Shown one piece after another: positions 788 to 20,590 of a stretch of 64,000 nt of DNA (the stretch's first letter is position 1; every line of letters begins with the position of its first letter). The notes beneath the pieces were generated by a model. It saw nothing but the letters and a program-made list of their open reading frames with translations. It searched no databases and had not been told where the DNA came from. Both the position numbers and the translations under genes were made by a program. This DNA is from Tetrahymena thermophila SB210 (taxonomy: Eukaryota; Ciliophora; Oligohymenophorea; Hymenostomatida; Tetrahymenidae): assembly GCF_000189635.1 (NCBI RefSeq), contig NW_002476522.1, forward strand, positions 310,001 to 374,000. Reading direction: 5' to 3'.

Positions 788-3039
788 TCAGAAATTCTTC
801 CATATCTTGAGTAAGAAGGTAGGTTCTTCAACCTTAATTTCACCTATTAGATCGAGGAGAGTATCAATATCATTTAACTTTTGTTATTAAGCTCTTGTAA
901 GGGATGCAGCTCTAAGTTATTGAGACTTGAGCTTGAAGACTTCAACAATGAGAGCAGTTTCAAACTTACGAGGAGAATTATTGGGATCTTCACCTCTAAG
1001 TAATTCAATTTTTTCTTCATTTCTCAAAGCTTCCTTAACATTTTAGAAAGGTAAACCACTTAATTTGGTGAAATCGAAAGAGTTATCAATTAAAGCTCTT
1101 GGGAAAACATTTTCTAAATCAATTCCTTTATAGAAATCTCTTGAATCTACAGCATTTTTATCATTTCCATATAAACTATTTTTTTCAATGTGGAATTCAG
1201 CGTTCAATTCTTCTTCCTATTTTATTAATGAAATTAAAATCATATTTAAAAAAATAAAAATCTTTTACAGCTTTTTTTTCAAATTGAAGCATTAAATTTT
1301 CGATAGCCTTTTCAGGGTTTAAAAGATCATCTTGAATAGTTTGCTTTTGTTCAGCTTATTCTTCTTCTGCTTATTCCTTTTCCATTTGGAGCTTTCTTTC
1401 TTCAAAAAGTCTCTATTATTCCTTAATTTTTTCTTGTCTTAACTTTTCTTCTTCAATCAATTTAGCAATATCAATTTCATCTTCAGAGTCTGAAGTTTCT
1501 CTTTCGTCATTACTTTGAATATCAGAATCTTATTCATTTTCTTCAGTATCTCTATCTTAATTTTTAGCCTATTCTAAATTTTACTTTCTAATAAGTTTCT
1601 TCTTTTCCAACATTACTTATCTTTCGTGAAGAATATCTCTAACAACAGTAGCAGGTATTTTTAACATATTAGTGTACTCACCCCATTTTCTTAACATATT
1701 GTATAAAATTAATAAATGTTCATGTAAGAACTCCAATTGATTTTCAGGCTAATCGAATTTCTCCTTTTAAGCTTTTCTCTATTTAAATTAATTTATAAAT
1801 TGTTATTATTAAACACTTTAAAATAATTTTGATTCATCTTTTTTATTCAATTTAGTTTGTATGTAATATTTACAAGAGTATTGAAAGCCTTTTCGAGTTT
1901 TGCCATCTTTTCTTCAAGTTAATCTTCGATTTACATATTTCTGCAGTCTTCAATGAGAATTCTTTTAGCAGCCTAGAATTCCTTTTCTAATTTGAATGAT
2001 TCAGTGCTCTTTAAATGCTTAATCATAGAAATAACATCTTGGTAGATCTTTTCAATTTAAAATATAATTAAATTTAGAATTAAATTCTAATAAAATATGA
2101 ATGAATCTTTTAGTATTTTTATATAGTAAAGTGGGTAGTTTATGCATAAAAATAGCAGCTTTCAGTGCTTTACATCCATATTAACTAAGTTCATAGAATT
2201 ACAAATAAATATATTTGCATTTTAATTTTGCTTGACAAATCCATATTTACTATCGCTAAAATAAAAGAAGCTAAATTATGAATGAAAGCAAGAAAAGCTA
2301 TCAAAAGCAAGCAAGCAATCAGCTTTATTAAAACAAAAAAAGAACAAACAAACTAACCCAAGTTAAAAAAAATATTATTATATGTTTGCCATTTCTGTCT
2401 TTAAATATTTACAGGCATGAGAACTGAGTTCTTATATTATATTTCTTCGGTTTCAAGAGAGACTTTTTCCATTTCTTCTAATCTACCTTATTCGAAAAGG
2501 AAAGCTTATTCGTGTAATTTAAGATAGTAGTCAGTTTCGTCGTAAATAGTAGCAGGCATAATGGAATCAGGATTAATATTATTAACATTTTATTGATTGA
2601 TCCAATGTCTAGATTCTTATTGCATAATATTCAAAATTCTCTTTTTGTTCATAGCTTTAACGTCTTGTTCTAAAATGTGTTTGCGTTCTTTAGCTTCATC
2701 AAGAGCTGATCTCTTTTTCAAGAATTCAACATGGTTTTAAGTTGCTTTGGCAATACGAATAATTGAATCACGGAAATTTTGATCGCTTTTCTTCTTACGT
2801 TCTAATTCTTCGCGTGTATATTTCTCAATGTATTCATTTTCTAAAATTGTTTATGAATTCCAATAATCACTTATAACTTTAGCTCTGTATTCTTTTTCTA
2901 ATTATTTCTAAGCTCTTCTTTCTTATTCATAAATAGTAACTTTTCTGCTTGGTTTTCTCAACTTCCAGCCCATACGAGGCATGACGATAAATTCTTTGAA
3001 GAGACCTAATTAAGATCTAGCTTTGTTAATGAAATTCAT
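788..3039 (-). CDS. Four-exon charged protein; N-terminal exon resembles mitoribosomal protein mS26
   Basis: Modelled as join(788..1216,1269..1778,1874..2047,2413..3039), 579 aa. All introns are phase 0 and every exon length is a multiple of three. The first exon starts MNFINKARSQLGLFKEF, Arg/Lys-rich without early acidic residues, like a mitochondrial presequence. It then has a long charged helix, and a motif around residues 150-190 (ESRHWINQQNVNNINPDSIM, then YDETDYY). Its layout recalls mS26/PET123: helix, an aromatic-Asn block, a short acidic Tyr-rich end. The later exons encode an acidic coiled coil (EEEKLRQEKIKEQQRLFEER) and a conserved-looking C-terminus ending LLKIWKNF before TGA at 788-790. 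The weakest junction is the 365-nt intron 2048-2412. Without it the first exon stays open to a TGA at 2191, and the downstream part (possible start Met just inside 2047) could be a separate gene. The identity is a family-level guess; coding status is well supported. Confidence 0.55.
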
Positions 3040-5257: not shown

Positions 5258-5875
5258 TTAAGCTTCTTTTTTTATGTATCCTTAATTTTTAATTGAATTA
5301 TTTGCTTTGTTTTGTTGTATAATTTACTCAAATTATTAGTAAATTTGTAATATTTTGATAAATCTGAAATTAAAATCTCTGTTTTGAACAAATATTTAGG
5401 TATAAACTCAATATAAAATTAATCTTATATTTAAGTACATAGATTATGTATTTAAAAGATTTAATACAAAATTCATTTATTGCTTACATTTGTTTAAAAT
5501 TAATACAAATAATAAACTTAATTAATCTTTTTAATTTTTGACTACAGCATTTCCTATTTTTTATTTTTAAATTTAACATCATATGAAAGAAAATGAATAA
5601 GGTACACAAAAGATTCACTTAATTTTATTTTTAAAGTTTTAGACTTGTAAAAAAATAAATCTAACGAAATTTAATTCTTATTATTATTTTTTAAAGACTA
5701 ACTAAAAATATATATATATAAGATATGTTGATTGAGTTAATAATAAGGAAAATAAACACTATTGAAGTAAATAAACATAAATTTATTTCTTAAACACTTA
5801 TTAAACTCTATTTTCTATTAATAAAATTTAATTCTAAATATTTATCTAATATAAATGTTTTTAGCAAAGAAAAAA
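5258..5875. other. Intergenic spacer; left edge of the protease-array duplication
   Basis: No gene seen. From about 5765 rightwards the sequence is alignable by eye with DNA starting about 10600 (shared CTTAAACACTT.TTAAACT and the 3' flank of the protease gene). This puts the left boundary of the segmental duplication here. Confidence 0.55.
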
Positions 5876-7824
5876 TCATCCTTAAACTGATTGTCCATAT
5901 ACAATATTTTAATTATTATTTTAGTCATGATTTATTGCGCCATCTATTAAAACACCTTAGTCTTAGAACTGATTTTATTCTTATTAATGATTGTTATCAT
6001 TTTAATAATCCCCATCTATAGCAACATCTTAACCTTAGAAATATATTTATTGCTGATTTTAATTTGATAACAGCTATTGATTTAGATAATTACGATTTCT
6101 TTCTCTTCTTTCTTTTACTTTTCTGTATAAACAGTAGGAAATAACACCTATAATTAAAACTCCTCCTACTACAATAAGAGCAATTTACCATCCTTTAAGA
6201 GGATAATTTCTATAATCATCATCTGGATTAGCAACTGATAGAGTTAGACCTTTAAGTTTAAAAAAATTTAATTTAATGTATTTTTGATATTTACTCAATC
6301 AAATAAATAAATAAATAAATTTTAATCTTTTATCAAATTAAAAAAAATGGTAGAGGTATAAACTAGCAGCTATTAATTAATAATAATGTTTGGATTAATT
6401 TTTTGGGTTTGATATTTAATTATAAAAAATAATTTTGAAATTTTACCCTATTTCAAAATATTATATTTTATAAGAATAGATTCTAAAGCTAGTTTTTTTG
6501 AGTTTATTTTTGTAAAAGAATAAGTTAAATAAATTAATAATAGAATTAACTAAGTGCTTACCAATAGTAGCGTTATTATGAGTAAATATAGTAACATATC
6601 TTCTCATGAAAACGTTACCAAGAATAATTTACACGTCTGACAATTTATCTGGCATTCTTTTAATGCCAATTAAACATTCGTCTTAGATCTCTATATAGTA
6701 GAAAGATGAAGGAATAGAATATTATCTTTCGATTCCATCAGTGTCATTTAAAATAAAATTTATGTTGGGGAGTGAGGTACTACAACTTGTGTAATAATAT
6801 TCACTCGATTTCTCATAAACTTTATAATTTTAAATCAAATATGTAAAAAATTATCTGTGCATATCACTGCTTAAGTAAATAAGTGATGCTCCAGAGTCAA
6901 CAAGAGCAAAATTACTGTTAATGCTTAAATTATAGCTAAATTTTTCAAAATTAACTTATTTGACTGGGATCTACCATCTTTACAACTCTTTTTGAATTAA
7001 CGTGACTGGATGAAAATAAATTTAGGAAGTGTCAGCTACTTTTTTAGGATCAAAACCTCCAAAAACTAGTTAAGAATCGCTCTTGCCAAATCCAAGATAA
7101 AAACTAAACATATCTTGTTAAATTATTCCGTTATTCTTCATATTAGTAACAAATGAGTTACCATTACCATTAATTAAATCATACATTCCTAAACCAAGTA
7201 GACAGTCATACTATTATAAAATTTAAAATTAAGTATTTTTTAGATAAACTCAGTTTTTATAGTCATTTTTTAAAAGTTTTTTACTTAACTATTTTAGAAG
7301 TCTTAGGTTTGTTATACTAAAACGAAGGACTACTAAACTTGCTAAAGTCCACAAACACCGACAGTAGTAGTTGCTATATAACCACTAATTTCTCCTGTTC
7401 CATATTATATAGAGTATTATTTTGTTGTTTAACTGCATCCATTTGAAGCAGAGCAATCATAGTGTACATTTAATCCCTATTTTTTATATTAGATAATTTA
7501 AGTTTATATTTAAAAAGATCACAATAGTTAATTTACCTAGCATTTACCACTCTAGACACAATCTTTACTAGGTATCCATAAGGTATCTGAACCTGTATCA
7601 AAATTAACCTTAAATGTTTGATTCTAACTCCCAACTTGAATAGTACCATAATAGTGTGCCAATTCATAGTTAACCAAAGAATTAACACTATATGATTGTA
7701 AAAAGCTTCTATTTTGCTTAACTGATTCATTATTGGCCTCCTATTTTGTCAGGGGAATATTTAATATATTTTAAAAAGTTATTTAAAAGCTTAGAGCCAA
7801 GCTTAACACAAATAAAAACCTCAT
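5876..7824 (-). CDS. Protease A: membrane-anchored pepsin-family aspartyl protease (A1)
   Basis: join(5876..6249,6562..7210,7285..7476,7537..7824), 500 aa. Signal peptide MRFLFVLSLALSFQ; start ATG just before it. The pepsin fold is recognisable throughout: YYGTIQVGSQNQTF, first catalytic motif FDTGSDTLWIP (Asp76), flap YSIQYGTGEISG with its Tyr, LGLGMYD, LVFGGFDP, second catalytic motif ALVDSGASLIYL, and ILGNVFMRRYVTIF. Both Asp-[ST]-Gly motifs are intact, so the enzyme should be active. Unlike soluble cathepsin D, it has a C-terminal TM helix (WQIALIVVGGVLIIGVISYC) followed by a basic stop-transfer patch and a Gln/Asn-rich cytosolic tail ending VYGQSVQG. The catalytic domain therefore sits in the lumen or outside the cell. 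Closest relative is gene B at 10.7 kb. Last exon joins at ATIG/LTLSVANPDDDY. Confidence 0.9.
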
Positions 7825-8976
7825 TTTTTACTTAATTTTAGTTAGTGTTAAAGTATTCTTTAAATTAATTAGGTTTTCAAAGTTTTTATTTCTTAAATAT
7901 ATTTATTAAATTTGGAGTTTACTTGTGTTTTGCACCTATTAATATAAATTTCAATCGGTGATTTTGCTTTACTCTGATAAAAAACCATCAAAAATATTAA
8001 CATTTAGATATTTTGTTGTTTTAGAATATATGTGGTAATTAGCCTTTGTTTTTTATTTTAATAAAGATTAAAATATCTAAATTTATAAAAGAATTAGATA
8101 AATCAATCATTTTAAGGAAACAAAAACAGTAAAAGTTATCATTTTTAAATAAACTAACTATATGGAAAAACCAAATACACATAATAAATAATTTTAGTTT
8201 TCAATTTTACACATATTATAAAAGTCTAAAAAATCATATTTAAAACTGCATGATAAAATAAAAATAAAAAAAGTTATTGACTAGATTAGTTGACATTTTA
8301 AGAAAGTTAAATTAATTTAATAGATATTAAGTTAAATATTTTTATCATTTATAATAGTTTAAAGCATATTATAATTAGGATGATATTAATGACATAACAA
8401 GCAGAATTTAAATTAAAACAAAAAAATACAAAGCAGAATTAATAATAAATAAATGGAAAAAAATAGTTTAGACCTAAAAGATGGTTACTAAATTTAACAA
8501 TTAATTATTAAAAAAAAGCTGTAAATAATTTTCAAATAAATAGAATACAATTTTATTATTTTTTTTTTTTTATTAAAAGTTAAGCAAGCAAACATGCTTG
8601 AAGAATTTTATGAAGAAAAAAAATATTGAATAACTTAAAAAGTATTTTTTAATTAATGGTGATTAAAGTATATTCAAAATAAATGAAATAAAATTATTGA
8701 TAAAAAAATAAATGAAATTAGTTGATATTTATATGAAAATTAATAATTTGATTGAATATTTAATTATTCGAAAGCAAAAAGAAGTTTACAAACAAATTAT
8801 TTTTTTAGTGATGTAAACTCATTAAAAGGAATAAATATATCCAAATAATAAGATTTAAATTTGATAGAGGTATATTTTTTCTTTTTTTCGTATTTTTCTA
8901 GATTTAAAGATCATTATTTAAAGATTTAAAACATTTTTTGTTTTTTTATGTACTTTAAAATTAAGCTATAAATATG
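7825..8976. repeat. Upstream spacer of protease A, duplicated at 12405-13713
   Basis: A+T-rich non-coding DNA whose landmarks recur in the same order upstream of protease B. Examples are TTTACTTGTG near 7920 and 12515, AATTTTAGTTTTCAATTTTA near 8190 and 12790, and AAGCAAGCAA.ATGCTTGAAGAATTTTAT near 8583 and 13280. It is part of the segmental duplication and may hold the shared promoter. No gene of its own. Confidence 0.6.
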
Positions 8977-9329
8977 TCATAAGTTATCTTGGTAATCATA
9001 ATTATTTTATATTATACCTTATTATTTTTTATTCTCAGATTTCAGATTTTAGCTTCAAATTACAAATGAAGAATCTTTATTTTAATTTTAATTTGAATCA
9101 ACAATAGGATGTTTACTTGTGTTTTAAATGATTTCTTTACAATCTATGTTCTATTCTTTAATTAAAACACCATTTTTTAGCTTAGATTTATTTATTTTAC
9201 ATTGCTTGCAAAAACAAACTCCAAAAACTATCAATAGAATACTACAAAATATTGAAGCTTTTATTATACACAATGCTTAATCCATAGCACTTTAATGCTT
9301 TTATTGATTATAAACAGACTATGCAAATC
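8977..9329 (-). pseudogene. Decayed 3' exon of a deleted protease C copy
   Basis: Homologous to the last exon of protease C (13714-14069): the TM segment (CSILLIVFGVCFCKQCK against CSILLIIIGVCFYKQCK in C) and the tail INKSKLKNGVL are still readable. Three things show it is dead. No catalytic-domain exons lie upstream; the following sequence jumps to DNA corresponding to the region 5' of gene C. The splice acceptor is lost: C has AAATAG before GATTTGC, the relic has AAAT with the AG missing. An in-frame TGA at 9055-9057 (Cys codon TGT in C) cuts the tail short of the ancestral stop at 8977-8979. This is all that remains of a fifth protease gene. Confidence 0.85.
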
Positions 9330-10712
9330 ATTTGATAAAAATTAATAATTTTATAAAAGATAAATCTATTATTTGAAACATTTATATTTATATAATATAT
9401 TTAAATTTATTAATTTTTAAAGATTTTAAATTTTTTATTTTGAAAATATTAAAATTTAAATTTATTTCATAAAAAGTGGCATCTAAACCACTAAATTTTT
9501 GTATGGCATCTTGCTATACTTTATATTTGTTATAAAATTGAAAAAAAATGTAATTTCATACAATATTTAGAATAACATTCATTAAATTATATTCGATTAT
9601 TAATATATTCATTAATCCTAATGTTTAAAAAAAAGAATAAGTTTTTGGTTTTTATTGTATTTATAACCTAAATTTATATCCTCTACTCTTATTATCAAAC
9701 AAAAATTAATTTAATACCATAAATTCTTTAAGTGATTAATATCTTTCTATTTGAACCATTAAAATTTACATCAATTCATCATTTGTATATTATTAAGCTG
9801 TTTTAGAATTTATGGTGGTATTTTACTTTAATTTGAGGTGCTTTTTAATAAATTGTAACCTTAATTAGCAAGAATAAGAAAATATCTAAATAAAAAATTT
9901 ATAAATTTTTCAAGGATGAAAAAGCATATAATCTATCTATCTAACTATTTATCCTTTAATATATAATATTAATAATATTTATAATTTCTTGATAAATATA
10001 AATTTCTTATTATTTATATAAATCTTAGATATTTTACAATCATTTTAATAAGCTTCTTTATTTTTAAACTAAAAATTCTTTACATATTAAACACATTTAT
10101 TATTTACTTATTAGTTAATTTAGTTATTAATATAATTTTATCTAACAATGTAACAATTATGTATACAAAGTTAAGTCTTTAAAAACATTTCATTTTAAAA
10201 TACCCCATATTTTTTATAAAAAAAGATAAGCTAATCACTTTCAGTAATATTGTTTTTAAATATCCTGCATAACTTTGATAAATTAAATATTAGGTTTATC
10301 ATAAATTTTTCTCAATAATTATTATTATATTAAAAAAAAATTATCAAAAAGTGTTTGACATTTATTTATTTCTGTATAAAAATGTCTACCAATTAATTAT
10401 TGAAAAGTCAAGCATATTAAATAATAAAAACAATCTTTTATTTGCTTTGTTTTAAAATATATATGCATGTAATTTACATAAAGATAAATCAAATATTCTT
10501 TTAATGCATAAAACAAACACTAACATAAAATATATCATAAATCAAGATTTGTATATTTGAGTTACTTGTATTCTTTGAGATTACACAGTTCGAAGCAAAC
10601 ATAAATTATATTTCTTAAACACTTGTTAAACTGTATTTTCTTTTAAGTAACTTTAATTCTAGATATTTATCTAATTTAAATATTTTTAGCAAATAAAAAA
10701 TGAAAGAAATAA
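9330..10712. repeat. Spacer after the relic exon, equivalent to DNA upstream of protease C
   Basis: About 9330-9475 matches the intron next to gene C's last exon (14070-14245). From about 9540 to 10590 it matches 16195-17245 upstream of gene C (shared TTTCATACAATATTTAGAATAACAT, GTATACAAAGTTAAG, AAAATACCCCATAT). The missing ~1.95 kb corresponds to the body of gene C. The tandem-duplication junction is near 10590-10600. No gene seen. Confidence 0.65.
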
Positions 10713-12404
10713 TCATCCTTAAACTGGTTGCCCATATACAATATTTTAGTTATTATTTATTCCACCACCTATTAATACACCTTAGCCTTAGAAATAATTT
10801 TATTGTTATTAATAGTTGTTTTAATTTTAATAATTTCCGCCAATAGCCACACCTTAACCTTAGAAATAATTTTATTGTTGATTTTAATTTGATAACAGCT
10901 ATTGATTTAGATAATTACGATTTCTTTCTCTTCTTTCTTTTGCTTTTCTGTATAAACAAAAAGAAACAACACCAATAATTAGTAGTCCTCCTATTACAAT
11001 AAGAGCAATTTACCATCCTTCAAGAGGAGAATTTGTATAATCATCATCTGGATCAGCAACTGATAAAGTTAGACCTTTAAGTTTAAACAAATTTAATTTA
11101 AATATATTTATTTATTAACTAAGTGCTTACCAACAGTTTAGTTTTTATAACTAAATAAAGAAACATATCTTCTCATGAAAATGTCACCAAGAATAATTTA
11201 TACGTCTGAGATACCTACTGAGGGGGGGAGACTTGAAATGCCAATTATGCATTAGCCTTAAGTCTTTATATAGTAAAAAGATGAAGGGATAGAATATTAT
11301 CTTTAAATTCCATCTTTGTCATTTAAAATAAAATTTATGTTAGGGAGTGAGGTACTACAACTTGTATAATAGTATCCATCTTATGTCTAATAAACTTTAT
11401 AATTTTAAATCAAATATGTAACAAATTATTTGTACATATCACTGTTTAAGAGAATAAGTGATGTTCCAGAGTCAACAATAGCAAAATTATTAACAGCATT
11501 TAAAGTATAGCTAAATGTCTTAAAATTAACTACTTAAACTCTGATCGACCATCTTTAATAACCTTATTAACCATATAATATGACTGGATGAAAGTAAATT
11601 TAGGAAGAGTCAGCTACTTTTTTTGGATCGAAACCTCCGAAAATTAGTTAAGAATCGCTCTTTCCAAATCCAAGATAAAAGCTAAACATTTCTTCTTAAA
11701 TTATTCCGCTATTCTTCATATTAGTAACAAATGAGTTACCATTATCATTGTATGAATCATACAATCCCAAACCAAGTAGACCGTCTGCCTATTATAAAAT
11801 ATAAAATTAAGTATTTTTTAGATTAAATCAATTTTTTAAGTCATTTTTTAAATGTTTTTTACCTAAATATTTGAGAAGTCTTAGGCTAGTTATACTAAAA
11901 GGAAGGACTATTTAACTTGCTAAAGTCCACAAACTCCAACAGTAGTGGTTGCTATATAACCACTAACTTATCCTTTTCCATAGGAAAGAGTTTTCTGGGT
12001 TGCTGATAAGCTGCATCCATTTGAAGCAGAGCAATCATAATATCCATTTAATCCCTATTTTTATATTAGAAAATTTAATTTTATATTTAAAAAGATCACC
12101 ATAGTTAGTTTACCTTGCAATTATAGTCACTCTAGATACAGTTTTTACTAGGAAGCCATAACTAATATGAACCTGTATCAAAAATGACCTTAAATGTTTG
12201 ATTCTAACTCCCAACTTGAATAGTTCCATAGTAACTCATCTATTAATTATTAACCAAAGAATCAACGCTATACGATTATAAAAAGCTTCTATTTTGTTTA
12301 ACAGATTCATTATTGGCCTCTTATTTTGCCAAGGGAATAGTTATCATATTTTAAAAACTTATTTAAAAGCTTAAAGCCAAGCTTAGCACTAATAAAAACC
12401 TCAT
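10713..12404 (-). CDS. Protease B: membrane-anchored pepsin-family aspartyl protease (A1)
   Basis: Tandem paralogue of protease A with the same four-exon plan (first exon 12114..12404, 97 codons). Signal peptide MRFLLVLSLALSFQ. First catalytic motif FDTGSYQLWLPS and second AIVDSGTSLI are both intact; DGLLGLGLYD and ILGDIFMRRYVSLF are the other pepsin landmarks. C-terminal anchor WQIALIVIGGLLIIGVVSFC, a basic patch, then an N/Q-rich tail containing YFQGQGVAIGG and YFQGQGVLIGG as an internal repeat and ending VYGQPVQG before TGA at 10713-10715. A G-rich tract at 11220-11229 (reading Pro-Pro on this strand) is a local difference from A just before the ILGD motif. No frame break was found, so it is probably a working enzyme, secretory or surface-membrane bound. 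Confidence 0.88.
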
Positions 12405-13713
12405 TTTATACTGACTTACTTACTTAATTTTAGTTAGTATTAAAGTATACTTTAAATTAATTAAGTATTCAAAGCTCTATTTCTAATAAGAATATATATT
12501 AAATTTGGGGTTTACTTGTGCTGTGTACCTATTAATATAAATTTCAATCTGTGATCTTGCTTTTCTCTGATAAGCAAAAAAAATCACCTAAAATGTTAAT
12601 TTTTGATATTTTGTTGTTTTAGAATCGATTTGGGAAACTTCATTTTTTATTTTTATAAAGATAAAAATATCTAAATAGAAAAAAGAAATAGATAAATTAA
12701 TGATTTTAAGTAAAAGAAAATAGTCAAAATTATCATTTATAAATATGCTAGCAACTTACCAAAAGCAAATATACATAATAAATAATTTTAGTTTTCAATT
12801 TTATACATAGAATTAAAGTCTAAAAAATTATATTTAAAGCCTTAAGATAAAATAAAAGTAAAAAAATTTATTGACTAGATTAGTTGAAATTTTTAAGAAT
12901 CTAAATTAATTTAATAATTATCAAAAACAAATAGATGTAATAGTAAGCAAGGAATTAATTTGAGTGTATATAAAATTATCATAAGACGAATTCGATTAAA
13001 TAAGAATTTAAACTAATAGATTTTAATTTAATTATTTTTTTTTCATTTATAATAGCTTTAAGCATATTAAATTAGGATGATATTTATTATACAACAAGTA
13101 GAATTTTTATTAAGTTAAAAAAATACAAAGCAAAATTAAGAAATAATAATAAATAAATGGATAAAATTAGTTTAGATATAAAAAAGGGTTACTAAATTAA
13201 AAAAATAAGCAGTAAAGAATTTTCAATTAAATAGAATACAATTGTATTACTTTTTCTTTTTTATTAAAAGTAAAAGTTAAGCAAGCAACACGCTTGAAGA
13301 ATTTTATTAAGAAAATAAAATATAATATAACTATAAACACACTTTGTAATTAATGTTGAATAAAGTAAATTAAAAGTACAAGAAATCAAATTATAGATAA
13401 AAAATAGATAAAATTAGTTGATATTTTTAAGAAAATTAATAAATTGATTGAATATTTAATTATACTAAAGCAATAAGAAGTTTACATACAATTTATTTTT
13501 TATTAAGTAAATTAAATTATATGCTTCTATTATTTTTGGTGATGTAAACTTGTTAAAAGAAATAAATATATCCAAGTAATAAGATTTAGATTTGATAGAG
13601 GTATATATATTTTTTGTTTATATAGTTTTTTTTTCTAGATTTAAAGATCATTTTTAAAAGAGTTAAAACATTTTTTGTTTTTTTATCTACTTTAATATAG
13701 CGATATAAAAATT
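12405..13713. repeat. Upstream spacer of protease B (second copy of 7825-8976)
   Basis: Non-coding, A+T-rich, collinear with the DNA upstream of protease A, with small insertions (for example around 12900-13030). No gene seen. Confidence 0.6.
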
Positions 13714-15593
13714 TCATAAGTTATCTTGGTGATTATCATTATTTTCTTCTAGAACACATTATCCTTTTTTATTTTCAGATTTCAGATTTTAGCTACAAAT
13801 TATAAATGAAGAATCATGATTTTGATTTTAATTTGTATTAAAAATTGGGTTTTTGATTGTGTTTTAATCGCTTTCTTTATTATCTGTATGTTATTCTTTA
13901 AGTAAAACACCATTTTTTAGCTTAGATTTATTTATTTTGCATTGCTTGTAAAAACAAACTCCAATAATAATCAGTAGAATACTACAACATATTGACACTA
14001 TTATTATACATAATACTTAATCTAAAGGACTTTAATGCTTTTATTGATTTTAAACAGACTAGGCAAATCCTATTTAATAAAAATTAAAAATATTACATAA
14101 GACAAATAAATATATTATTGAAACAGTGATCTATAATATATTTAAATTTTTTCATTTTAAAGATTTTAGATTTTTTATTTTGTAAATATTTAATTTAAAA
14201 TTTTAATTTTTTACTATTTTAGAAAATTTATTATTAATACATTTCATATAGTGTTTAAAATTTATAAATATCAAGTAAATTTAAATTAATCAAAATAATT
14301 AATTACCTATTGTTGAATTTGAAATTGTAAAAATTGAGACATATTTTTCAAGGAAAGATGTTCCCAGAATCATATTAAGATCTGGATTTTCTAATGATTT
14401 AATCATTAATTAGCATGTCTAGGTAGTATTATTTATATAATAATCCGATGTAAGATTATATATCCTGCTTGTACTATTAGAGTCAGGCAATGCGATTAAA
14501 ATTGGAGGCATGATTTATTTACAGTCGACAAAATAATATCCTTAATTTTAAAATACTTTGTATTATTTTGTGAGATAATTCATCAAATCATTGAAAATGT
14601 CTTAGTTCAATCCAATAAATTAGTCTACTGAAGAAATTAGAATTTATTTTTATGTTGCATTTAAGCTAGCTGAATAAGATCCTATTTTTAATTCATCTCC
14701 TCTTACAGCCCATTGGAAGGTTTCATCTGTCTGATTTTTTGATATCACTTTATGATAATATATTTTTTTTTAATCCATTATTGAGGCTGGATCAAAACCT
14801 CCTAAAGTAATTTTAGAGCCTTCTTTTTAGTTCAAGAATAAAGAAAACATAGGCACTTTTATTTTTCCTTCAGATTGAATGATTGAAAGAAAAGATTCCT
14901 AGCTTTTGTTCTATGATTTTAACAATTACATTCCTATAACACCATCTACCTAAAAATAATTTTTGAAAAAAATAAAATATTTTTGTATTTAAACAATTTT
15001 ATTATTTATTTATTTATTTATTTATTACTGGTAAATTTTCAAGATTTAAAATTTGATTTGCAGAATAGAATTGTGTGTTTTAAGATGTTAATCCAGAAAT
15101 TTGTAATGTTGCGATTATTTATTATCCATACAATTGCCCACCAGAGTAATTGTAATTAGATAGTGCTTATTTATTATCTTGGTAACACATATCACTATAA
15201 ATACAGAGATATGTCTTGTTAAATCCCTAATTATAATTAAAACAAAATATTTTAAAAGGTATGTAAAATAAAGTTTTGAGTTACTTGGCAAGAATCGCTT
15301 GTGCAAGAAGAGCTAGGAATCCAACTAAAAGAAGAAGTTGTGTCAAAGAAAACATCGAAGCTGTTATTTTTACCATTGCCTAATTGAATTTTTCCATAGT
15401 AAAACGACTAATTTGTATCACTTATAACATTTAAGTTGAGATTAGCGCTATCCTACTGTAAGCTTCTAAGTCTTTAAGAATTTAAGGCTTGGATTTCATT
15501 TTATTTTTTTGAGAAGCTAAGAGGAATTTGTAAAATCTATGCTTGACTAAGAGATAAGATTGTGATTAAAATGTATGTAAATAATTATTACAT
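13714..15593 (-). CDS. Protease C: pepsin-fold membrane protein lacking catalytic residues (pseudoenzyme)
   Basis: Pepsin-family fold with signal peptide MQQLFTYILITILSLSQAQ, FYYGKIQLGNG, ITLGGFDPAS and MILGTSFLEKYVSIFTI all in order. The active site is degenerate. The first motif reads FFDTTSSFSWIP (Asp84 kept, the invariant Gly replaced by Thr). The second, expected as V-D-[ST]-G-[TS], reads ISSVDQFIGL, so the second catalytic Asp aligns with Ser. The frame is open, so it is a maintained pseudoenzyme, perhaps a binding or decoy protein. The last exon (13714..14069, joined to an exon ending at 14307) encodes a TM anchor VSICCSILLIIIGVCFYKQC and a hydrophilic tail ending NNDNHQDNL. It is related to gene D and to the relic exon at 8977. 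Confidence 0.85.
15001..15027. repeat. (TTTA)n microsatellite inside an intron of protease C
   Basis: Tandem TTTA units, seen directly, in the intron near the middle of gene C. Confidence 0.8.
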
Positions 15594-18500
15594 TTATAAG
15601 CTTTTTATTTATTTATATCTTTTTTTCTTTTATTTTACTGAGCAATTATTATTAATAATTTATTTATTTATTTTAAAAGCTCTAAAAATTTCAGTATTTA
15701 TTATCAATTAATATTATCAAAATGCAGAACCTCTCCTCTTTTTATGACAAATCAATTTTCAAAATTTTTCTAATAATTAACAAATTAGTGAATACACTTT
15801 TACAATTTTTAATTAAAAGTACTTTTTAGGTTATGAAGTTTTATTAGAAACTTTTGCTTGCCAGATTCTTGAGTATAATAGAAATTATAATATATATATT
15901 TAAACTCTTTTCAATTTATTTTGAGAAATAAAATTGGATTTTGGATTACAAATATAAATTAAAAATACAGTATTTTCTGATTAGAAAAATTTAAGCAATT
16001 TATAAAAAATAAAATAGAAAAGAAGAAATAAATATAGTAACACAATTTCAATAGACAATATATTTATTTATTTATCTATCAAACTCCAAAAAACTAAATT
16101 TCTTATAAGTTTGTGAAAGTATTATTACTTCATTTTCCATGTTCTAGAACAAATTTATACAATTAAATATTTTTGAAAAAAATTGCAAGGTAGATTAATT
16201 TCATACAATATTTAGAATAACATACATTAAATTATATCCAATTGTTAATTTATTCATTAATTTTGATGTTTAAAAAAAAGGATAAGTTTTTGAAATTTAG
16301 TGTTCTGCTCTTATTATCAAACAAAAATTAATTAGAATACCTGAAGTTTTTTTTGTTATTCAGATATGTTTCTATTTGAAGCAATAAATAACATTAAATT
16401 TAAATTAATTCTGTATTTGCATATAATTAAGCTGTATTAGGATTGTTGGTGGTATTTTGTTTTAATTGCGGCGCTTTTAAATAAATTGTAACCTTAATTA
16501 GCAAGAAAAATAAAATATCTTAACAAAAAATTGATATATTTATCAGGGATGAAAAAAAAACCTTTATTAAATAAATTATGAGATAAATTAAAAAAGGATA
16601 AAAAAGCATATAATCTATCTATCTATTTATCCTTTAATATATCATGTGAATAATATTTATAACTTCTTGGTAAATATGCATTTCTTATTATTAATATAAA
16701 TCTTAGATATTTTACAATCATTTTAATAGGCTGCTAAAAATTTTTCACATAATGAAACCATTTATTTATTAATTAATTTTTATTTATATTATTTTATCTA
16801 TCAGTTTAGCAGTTATGTATACAAAGTTAAGCCTTTTTAAAAAGTCTTCATTTTAAAATACCCCATATTGTTATAAAAATGATAAACTAATCACATCACT
16901 TTCAGAAATGTTGTTTTTAAATATCCTGCTTAACTTTGATAAATTATATATTAGGATTATCATAAATTTTTCTCTATAATTATTATTTATATTAAACAAC
17001 AAATTATTAAAAAGTGATTGACATTTATTTCTGTATAAAAAGTGTCAACCAATTTATAATTGAAAATTCAAGCATATTAAATAATAAAAACAATCTTTTA
17101 TTTATTTTATATTAAAATTTTCCATTTAATTTACATAAAGATAAATCAAATATTCTTTTAATGATAAACACACTTACATAAAATATATATATCATCAATC
17201 AAGATTTGTTATTTGAATTACATGTATTTTTTGAGATTACACAGTTATAATTAGATTAAAAATCAGATGAAAAAAAATTTATTTGAAGTAACTATCATAA
17301 TTTTTCTCCTTTTACAATTATTTACATTATAAAAAAACTATTAAAAAGTATTTTTCATTTATTTTTGTATAAAAAATGTCTACCGATTAATTATTGAAAA
17401 GTAATACATATTTAATAATAAAAATAATCTTTTATTTGTTTTATATTATAATATGCAATTTTACACGAATATAAATCAAATATTCTTTTAATGCTTAACA
17501 AACATTCTTACATAAAATATAATCAAAATGCGTATTTTAGAGTTACATATATTCTTTGAGATTACAAAGTTCTAATCAAATCAAATCAATCAGATGACAA
17601 AAATTTTTTTAAAAGTTACTCATCTAATTTATAAAAGCTTATTTTCGAAATTAAAATATAAGCCCCTTAATTACTTTCTACTTGTCTCAATCAAGATTTC
17701 GAAACCCTTTTTTTTTTAAGTAATTAAATTAAATAATTTGTCATTTTTAATTTGTAAATAAAAAAGCTTAGGAAGATAATTATGGTTGGTTGGTTGTATC
17801 TAAGTGTAAAACAATTAATTTGAAATTTAATCACCATTAATTTTCCAAATTAAGGCTAATAAATACTTTGTTAATTTGTTAAGTAAATAAAAATTTTTTT
17901 TTACAGGGGTAAAGTTCCTTCCTATCTTACTATTTATCTTAATTAATGATAACTTACATTATTGTGAGCAAATAAAATTAAAAGAAGCCAGAATAAATGA
18001 ATGACATCAAATTAAATTTAAATAAATAAAAATTTTATCATATTTTTTTTCTTCGAATTTTGTATTAACATGTATTAATGAAAAGTAGTTGAGTAATTTG
18101 TTTTAGATAAATAAAAAGTAGTGTCATTTCAATTCATGTTTAGAAAAAATCGCTTTATTCAATTCATCTAAAAGATTTTGATTCGCTAAATATATATTTA
18201 ATAAACAAGTAAATAAGTTATTTTTTAGGCTATATTATGATACTGCCTAGATATATTGGAATCTTATTCAAATGCTATTCAATTTTATTCACTTTTATCT
18301 TTAAATAATAATTAATTATTTATATTGCAAAATTATTTCAACCATTTATTTATTATTCTTTTATAACAAACACAATTGAAAATTCATGATAAAAATAATA
18401 TACTTTTTTTATGAATTTCTGGAAATAAAATTTGGGATATTGATTGATTAATAAAAAAAATTTCAAGTATAAAATTATGAACAATAACGAGCGAAGGCTT

Positions 18501-18632
18501 TTAGCTAAAAAATATAAAGAAGGTATAAAGACAAATAATGATTGATATAAAATAAAATAATGATATAATTAATATTAAATGATAGCCAAGCATTTACTAC
18601 CACTTTATTTAATTGACTAGCATAAGAATATT
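15594..18632. repeat. 3-kb spacer between proteases C and D with internal tandem duplication
   Basis: From about 16195 to 17245 it is the second copy of 9540-10590. A ~300-bp segment is tandemly repeated inside it (about 16990-17300 and 17320-17630), sharing TGTATAAAAA.TGTC.ACC, ATAAATCAAATATTCTTTTAATG and TTTGAGATTACA. The rest (17640-18630) is unique A+T-rich DNA with no gene seen. Confidence 0.6.
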
Positions 18633-20590
18633 TCAAAAATTGTTATTATTGGAAATTTCATACTTAGAGGTAGAAGTTACTTATTTGGAACTAGTTGAAG
18701 TAGAAGTTACTATTTTCTAAGTTGATATTTATTAAGAACTAACTACCTATTTGGAGGAAGTGACGGTAGAAGAGCTAAAATTTCCTGTTTATATAGTAAC
18801 ATTTCCATTTGTTTTGCTACTAACAACTTGGTTACTTGTATTCATTACTGCTAAGTTAGTTGAAACATTTTAGTTTTTGTTACTAACAACTTAATTACTG
18901 GTATTCATTACTGATAAGTTAGTTGAGATATTATTAGCAGAGCTTGCATTTGCTTTATTGTTGCTATTGTTAAAGTTGCTTTATCTTTTTGAATAAGTTA
19001 TAATGTCACCATTTGAATCTGTTGAGAAATCTCTGTCTTTGTTTGACCTCCACTTTCTATATAAGAAGAACAATATAAGTGCAACAATAATAATACAAGC
19101 GATGACTATTAATGCAATAGCCCAGCCAGGAAGAGAAGAAGATCCTGATGATGAGTTAACAGATGCTAAAGAAAAACCTACCAAATAAATAATATAAAAG
19201 TTATATAAATATATTCATTTAATAATTTATTTTTTACCTATTGTTGCATTATTCATGCTAAATATTGAGACATATTTCTGAAGGAATGGAGTTCCTAAGA
19301 CAATCTTAACTGTTTGCTGATATCCTAGATCAGCAATCATTAAAAAACATGTATCAGATTATTTATTTATGAAATAATCTGAAGTCAAGTTGTAAATCTG
19401 CATATTGCCATTATTATCAGGTAAATAAAGTACAAAATTGGGAAATTTCTGACTACATGGCAAAGTATACTAGCTTCCTTGCTTTTATACTTTTAAATTA
19501 TTAATAAAGTACCTCATTAAGTTAACAAAGATATCTTCGCTTACTTTAATATAAGAATCAGCTGTTGAAACTTATACTAAATTATATCCTTATAAAAAGT
19601 ATTAAGAAAAGTTGCCAACTACTAATTATGAGCCTCTAACAACCCATTACTGAGTATTGTCATTATTTCCATTCATAACTACATTATGGTAGTTAATATT
19701 ACTTACATTTTATACTGAAGAAGCATCAAATCCTCCAACTGTAAGCTAGGGAGTAGAGCCAAAGTAGAAAGAAAACATATTTTATTAGATATTACCATTT
19801 TTAAATAAATTAGCAACATAAGAATTTCCATTTGGTTTGTAAAAGCTAAACATTTACATACCTAACACTCCTTCTGCCTATTTATTAAAATTAAATTTAA
19901 TTTATTTCAAACAGATATTTAGTTATTAACAAAGTAATTAGTATTTGCTAATATTTGTTAAAGATATATATATATCAAAAATTTACAAAAATTAATTTAA
20001 TTACTTATAAATATGTGAAATTGCTTATAGATAGGACTTAAATGAAATTGTGGCTAATGGCTTTTTAGCCAGCGAAACTTGTTAAAACATCTATACTTTG
20101 ACCTGTTAGAGTACCATTTTTATAGTTATATTAATTCAATAACTACTATCCTGCAGTACATCCATCAGTCGAAGTACAATTATAAGTTTTTGAGAAGCTC
20201 TTTGATTTATTTAATAAAAAAAGATTAAACTTTAATAATTATGGTTTAGCTTGAATGCTTTTATTATTGTATATGAAGAATTTATACCTAGCAGTTATTA
20301 TTGCCAATGCAGTAAACGCTGGGTATCCACGAAATTGAAGTTGTGGTATCGAACAATAAGGAAAAGGACTATTCTTGGCTTCCAATCTTGACTGTTCCTA
20401 CATAATATAAGCTACTTTGCTTTGAAAATTATTATTTGGGAGTAGAACCTTGTTCTAGATTTCTCATATAAGCATGATTACTAAGCTTAGGTTCTTCAAT
20501 CCTTACAGCCTAAAGAGGAATTTTAATTAACTCAGCTGCGTAAACTTCTAATATGGTTGCAAAAGTAAAAATTGCAAATAGAACTTTCAT
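18633..20590 (-). CDS. Protease D: pepsin-fold membrane protein lacking catalytic residues, Ser/Thr-rich tail
   Basis: Fourth family member, start ATG 20588-20590, signal peptide MKVLFAIFTFATILEVYA. Fold landmarks: YYVGTVKIGSQEQSF, LTVGGFDAS, KIVLGTPFLQKYVSIF. The first motif is LFDTTTSISWIP (Asp81 present, Gly to Thr). The second reads VQVSTADSYIKV, where V-D-T-G-T is expected, so the second catalytic Asp is Ser. Both substitutions parallel gene C, suggesting the change predates their split. The anchor is LPGWAIALIVIACIIIVALI followed by LFFLYRKWRSNK. The long cytosolic tail is Ser/Thr/Asn-rich, contains two near-identical ~20-residue units (S-T-N-L-[SA]-V-M-N-T-S-N-Q-V-V-S) and then SSKQV-type repeats, ending before TGA at 18633-18635. 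Maintained open frame; likely a surface binding protein rather than an enzyme. Confidence 0.85.

Follow-up and report, generated by a model that had tools for sequence, protein, structure and literature searches.

The window analysed here is a 64,000-nucleotide stretch of the Tetrahymena thermophila SB210 genome (contig NW_002476522.1, positions 310,001 to 374,000), and it includes an array of four genes for pepsin-like (A1) proteins, named A, B, C and D. The catalytic motifs of C and D are altered, which raises the question of what these two genes are kept for. A previous sequence-only reading had proposed that both had lost the catalytic dyad in the same way and are maintained as membrane-bound pseudoproteases. 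Our analysis indicates that C and D are very probably retained as something other than conventional proteases, and they are best read as membrane-tethered pseudoproteases that probably serve as binding proteins or receptors.

Motif 1 reads DTGS in A and B and DTT in C and D, as had been claimed; the Asp and the Thr are retained and the Gly is replaced by Thr. At motif 2, which reads ISSVD in C and VSTAD in D, the catalytic Asp is replaced by Ser, and the Gly by Val in C and by Ala in D. Neither of the two D-[TS]-G signatures of an active A1 protease, that of the first Asp and that of the second, is complete in either protein. Motif 2 was placed using a profile hidden Markov model (HMM) of 27 canonical paralogues, plus phmmer alignments to solved structures. 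In the profile alignment the Ser occupies the catalytic Asp position with the top posterior in both proteins, and the nearest insertion is found 6 residues before it in C and 12 before it in D; a three-residue misalignment was ruled out because the five residues on either side of the motif are free of insertions and deletions. The Ser was found at the same position when C was aligned to renin and when D was aligned to plasmepsin II, the latter alignment with a gap of one residue two positions ahead of the Ser. No other Asp stands at the second catalytic position of C or D in the three alignments (profile, plasmepsin II and renin), as the sequence-only reading had supposed. Its statement that the first Gly and the second Asp are gone agrees with the profile and the structure alignments, but the loss of the dyad has to be narrowed: the second Asp is lost, and the second Gly as well, while the first Asp is retained. 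The alignments place in C and D a dyad that is half lost, with one of the two catalytic acids gone. Flap Tyr75 is retained and aligned in both proteins, and so are Trp39 (SFSWIP in C and SISWIP in D, unlike BACE, which has Ala there) and the middle Ser/Thr of both triads.

C and D also share an Asp three residues C-terminal to the lost catalytic Asp (Asp278 in C and Asp273 in D), at pepsin position 218 by alignment. Residual or changed catalysis could in principle be carried out by the retained first Asp together with another group such as this one, or the site could have been rebuilt, the two Asp forming a displaced dyad of an aspartic hydrolase. The shared Asp, the first Asp, the flap Tyr and Trp39 are common to C and D despite their low identity (36-38%), and BYC has been reported to be active without one catalytic Asp (PMC6345952). 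However, both triad Gly are replaced, and Asp278/Asp273 is off the catalytic position in all three alignments. We consider residual or changed catalysis highly improbable, and a rebuilt dyad would be more improbable still.

C and D are intact genes, each encoding a type I membrane protein with a complete pepsin (A1) domain (Table 1). Each consists of 4 exons and 3 GT-AG introns, the places of which match between both genes, and the start of both proteins is hydrophobic. The genes in the window read through TAA and TAG, that is, they use the ciliate code, and there is no in-frame internal TGA in C (501 codons) or D (560 codons). The other two frames include 9 to 15 TGA each, and the shuffled coding sequences a mean of 8.5 (C) and 10.3 (D) in frame, with one or fewer in 0 of 2,000 shuffles of each. 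The matches to Pfam PF00026 (cut-off 19.9) span profile positions 2 to 314 of 315 in C (E 3e-35, 122.6 bits) and 2 to 313 in D (E 9.4e-27, 94.7 bits). Matches below the cut-off, TAXi_C and CD34_antigen for C and Chordopox_A13L for D, were held to be chance, except TAXi_C, which has a related fold. All six subfamily cysteines are kept in both proteins, and the A1 domain is followed by a C-terminal membrane anchor with a mean hydropathy over 19 residues of 3.23 in C and 3.61 in D. The signal peptide-like start, fold-supporting residues, anchor and open frames listed in the sequence-only reading were all recovered. The tail of D includes two 63-base (21-residue) repeats that are 87% identical (18812-18937).

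Selection was estimated by a branch test of omega (dN/dS) on 12 genes and 329 ungapped codons, all from the paralogues of one genome. Omega was 0.081 on the C and D tips versus 0.128 elsewhere, and a value of 1 on these tips was rejected, twice the log-likelihood difference (2dlnL) being 105 versus no more than 5.1 across 25 simulations under omega of 1. The pairwise omega between C and D was 0.080, a rough value because their synonymous distance is saturated. Selection on C and D is, by these estimates, strongly purifying, and neither the premature stops nor the relaxed selection expected of pseudogenes was found; purifying selection together with intact frames and cysteines ruled out that C and D are pseudogenes, as C', the relic of a second C gene, is. 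Against this trend, the tips of a tandem pair of A1 genes elsewhere in the genome that lost the first Asp (L011) had an omega of 0.48 (2dlnL 15.5 versus one ratio), and the pairwise value of 0.75, at low divergence, is not different from 1; this pair may be under weaker constraint. The raised omega of the L011 pair, the decay of the neighbouring C' copy and the gene turnover visible in the array would all fit C and D being ex-proteases that decay slowly without function, but with omega of 1 rejected, frames and splice sites intact and the cysteines complete, such decay is scarcely credible. The proposal that C and D are maintained membrane-bound pseudoproteases has thus held up, as both genes are under purifying selection and retain fold residues and anchors, and the second position holds no other Asp.

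C and D are sisters, with support of 100/99 in a tree of 35 rows and again of 100/99 in a tree of 30 rows without the motif columns, from which five long rows (L025_768, L021_603, L024_276, L016_486 and L032_734) were left out. Each change common to both amounts to at least 2 base changes when the codons are compared. Because they are sister genes, the loss of the second Asp was probably a single inherited event, which is the simplest reading. The earlier claim of a loss in the same way is correct as to the loss, which is best understood as inherited once. Between C and D, and between B and C, the synonymous distance is saturated and protein identity is 33-36%; this divergence and the tree rule out that either C or D is a decoy recently copied from A or B. 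A single origin for the six altered subfamily members (C, D, the L011 pair, L014 and L018) had a support of 92/91 with all columns and 35 rows, and of 69/57 after removal of the motif columns and the five long rows. As the support falls in the reduced tree, such an origin is a possibility.

The motif changes, the intact gene structure, the common descent, the purifying selection and the predicted membrane spans of C and D can be regarded as established at the level of sequence. Since one catalytic acid was lost and yet the genes are intact and under selection, C and D probably bind proteins and do not cut them, and binding is also the way in which we think it probable that they work overall. 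They would descend from one A1 gene from which the second catalytic Asp and the Gly of each triad had already gone. They would have been retained as type I membrane proteins with a normally folded pepsin-like domain on the lumenal or outer side. This domain would bind, but not cut, a peptide or protein in the former cleft or close to it, and the cytosolic tail would sort the protein or relay a signal. From the known chemistry, C and D would be expected to have no ordinary aspartic-protease activity; we hold the binding or receptor role with less support than this inactivity.

Several points weigh against a binding role or the history proposed for it. Both proteins retain the first Asp and the flap Tyr, neither of which a pure binding role needs. 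The structure model of D is middling (mean pLDDT 66.6) and spans one lobe, and four other models are at 40-49. The end branches of C and D are long (0.88-0.99), and long-branch joining therefore calls for some caution about their sister relationship. The saturated synonymous distance goes with fitted tip lengths above 10, though the rejection of omega of 1 is hardly affected, and the selection measured on the tips postdates the loss only if the loss preceded the split of C and D, an order that we infer. In addition, BYC still degrades haemoglobin without one catalytic Asp, and silencing of the tick pseudo-aspartic peptidase RmPAP gave no phenotype (PMC6345952).

C and D can be compared with several A1 proteins with altered active sites. 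The Plasmodium histo-aspartic protease HAP (3fns, 3fnu), among their nearer solved relatives, has one altered catalytic Asp. It is active, with the first Asp replaced by His; unlike HAP, C and D changed the second Asp, to Ser. RmPAP, like C and D, retains the first Asp and lost the second; it was shown to have no haemoglobin proteolysis, yet it binds haemoglobin (PMC6345952). It differs in having Pro at the lost Asp, where C and D have Ser, and it is a tick midgut protein for which the available part of the report mentions no membrane anchor (PMC6345952). Phytophthora PxAP9 is a BACE-like, membrane-bound, probably inactive A1 paralogue of the active PxAP8, and its authors propose that it is a peptide-binding surface receptor (PMC3116508). 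The likeness to C and D lies in membrane binding, a cytosolic extension and the presence of an active paralogue (A and B being canonical by sequence), but in PxAP9 the flap Tyr75 is replaced by Phe and Trp39 by Ala, as in BACE (PMC3116508), whereas C and D retain both residues and are without the second Asp and the Gly of either triad. PxAP9 is the nearest precedent for the topology and RmPAP the nearest for the chemistry. The pregnancy-associated glycoproteins (PAGs), a multigene family in which some members are active and others potentially inactive and for which peptide binding has been proposed, and cockroach Bla g 2 are also A1 proteins with altered triads (PMC5486050, PMC9541408, PMC3116508). 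PMC3116508 sets them against the membrane-bound oomycete proteins, and reports Phe75 in Bla g 2 and in the sheep and goat PAGs, where C and D have Tyr, together with a membrane span. C and D are thus a clear example of an already known type of pseudoenzyme, and their novelty is modest.

A search of the 101-Mb assembly (445 contigs) gave 65 matches, all of which were covered; the family count is a lower bound. Forty gene models were built and 35 tabulated, five being left out as duplicate, fragment or poor models (L023_3015, L009_9135, L027_33, L026_460 and L036_537, the last with DTGS and DSGT pieces), and L035 was without a model. D-x-G is present at both sites in 27 of the 35 models and altered in 7, and the second motif of the chimeric model L025_768 was unread. 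The altered triads are DTT/SSV in C, DTT/STA in D, STG/DSS in the L011 pair, DTG/DSS in L014, DTS/DSS in L018 and DSS/DTS in L022_7167. A catalytic Asp is missing in C, D and the L011 pair (4/35), and the combination of DTT with S-x-x, which the sequence-only reading had suggested searching for, occurs only in C and D. The two-gene picture of that reading was confirmed for C and D but had left unseen the other altered paralogues, one pair of them without the other Asp. The middle Thr/Ser of both triads, the "fireman's grip" residue between the lobes, is retained in all seven altered models, suggesting that selection acts on the fold and not on the chemistry. The L011 genes, 93% identical, are on contig C160 (about 83.8-87.7 kb), where both members of the cluster are altered; another cluster has four canonical genes (C402), and a third, a separate case of an altered gene with canonical neighbours, has two canonical genes adjoining the altered L022 gene (C85, 7167-8321), for which no strong membrane span was found in 900 bases downstream. 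For T. thermophila, 43 aspartic proteases have been counted across all families (PMC3341644), and one unnamed aspartyl protease is among the constitutively expressed Tetrahymena genes (PMC2636879). Among the literature matches listed for A1 proteins of ciliates or of Tetrahymena, none dealt with inactive Tetrahymena A1 proteins in its title or the opening of its abstract, and the available parts of PMC2636879, PMC8621943 and PMC8540915 include nothing on the A1 genes of the window.

Table 1. Coordinates of the A1 array and related features in the window.
Feature	Position	Strand	Description
Gene C	15593-13714	-	501 aa; signal peptide-like start, A1 domain, one membrane span, cytosolic tail
Gene C exons	15593-15285, 15226-15029, 14949-14307, 14069-13714	-	
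C motif 1	15336..15344	-	Asp84-Thr-Thr (GAC ACA ACT) replacing DTG; context FFDTTS
C motif 2	14623..14634	-	Ser275-Ser-Val-Asp (TCT TCA GTA GAC) replacing D-S-G-T; context LISSVDQ
Gene D	20590-18633	-	560 aa; signal peptide-like start, A1 domain, one membrane span, long Ser/Thr/Asn-rich tail
Gene D exons	20590-20288, 20199-20005, 19877-19238, 19177-18633	-	
D motif 1	20342..20350	-	Asp81-Thr-Thr (GAT ACC ACA); context LFDTTT
D motif 2	19557..19568	-	Ser270-Thr-Ala-Asp (TCA ACA GCT GAT); context VSTADS
Gene A	6563..7824	-	A1 domain as modelled, DTGS/DSGA; tail and membrane span continue downstream
Gene B	11132..12404	-	A1 domain as modelled, DTGS/DSGT; tail and membrane span continue downstream
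Segmental duplication, downstream copy	5773..10590	-	with A, without the catalytic exons of C
Segmental duplication, upstream copy	10597-17246		B, C and flanks
C'	8977..9329	-	relic of second C gene, tail exon only; catalytic exons absent

The array includes two duplicated segments, whose pieces are 78-85% identical (71-82% in longer gapped alignments). C' and C are identical at 302 of 356 aligned positions; C' has one internal TGA and lost the acceptor AG, and the differences by codon position (22/117, 13/118 and 16/118) do not have the third-position excess expected from constraint. One C copy was therefore dispensable, as C' decayed to a tail while C was retained, and the relic is a natural control next to the retained gene. 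This history bears on whether C and D are dominant-negative regulators that limit the activity of A and B by pairing with them or by binding their substrates or propeptides. The four genes are adjacent, with the same topology and subfamily, and C and B are side by side in the duplicated segment, apparently copied together. On the other hand, A stayed when the second C copy was lost, so that a C partner for each A or B gene is not required, and other clusters are all canonical or all altered, although that on C85 is mixed. We consider dominant-negative regulation unlikely, and equally doubtful any action of C and D directed at A, B or the substrates of these two, including the competition for substrates that the sequence-only reading had suggested and for which adjacency speaks. 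Within 6563-7210, gene A has Tyr-Asp-Cys-LLGLG and LGN in place of the Ala-Asp-Gly-LLGLG and LGD of B; protease activity of A is likely but not certain. The pairwise omega of A and B, 0.44, is higher than the 0.11 of the canonical pair L009_6317/L010_1135.

Inactive pepsin relatives are known in animals and have been proposed in oomycetes, and their roles are mostly guesses. Here two canonical paralogues and two altered ones, all with one topology, are side by side in a ciliate in which genes can be removed cleanly, and other altered paralogues, including a pair without the other Asp, are found elsewhere in the genome. The role of a membrane-bound pseudo-pepsin is therefore directly testable with this array.

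Between C and D there are copies of flanking sequence, 16196-17246 matching 9551-10590 in two pieces and 16958-17303 matching 17293-17630, which are remains of further duplication. Outside the array, the open reading frame at 2191-3039 on the minus strand matches mS26, chain Bv of PDB 6z1p, which we take to be the T. thermophila mitoribosome; of the first 210 residues, 209 are identical.
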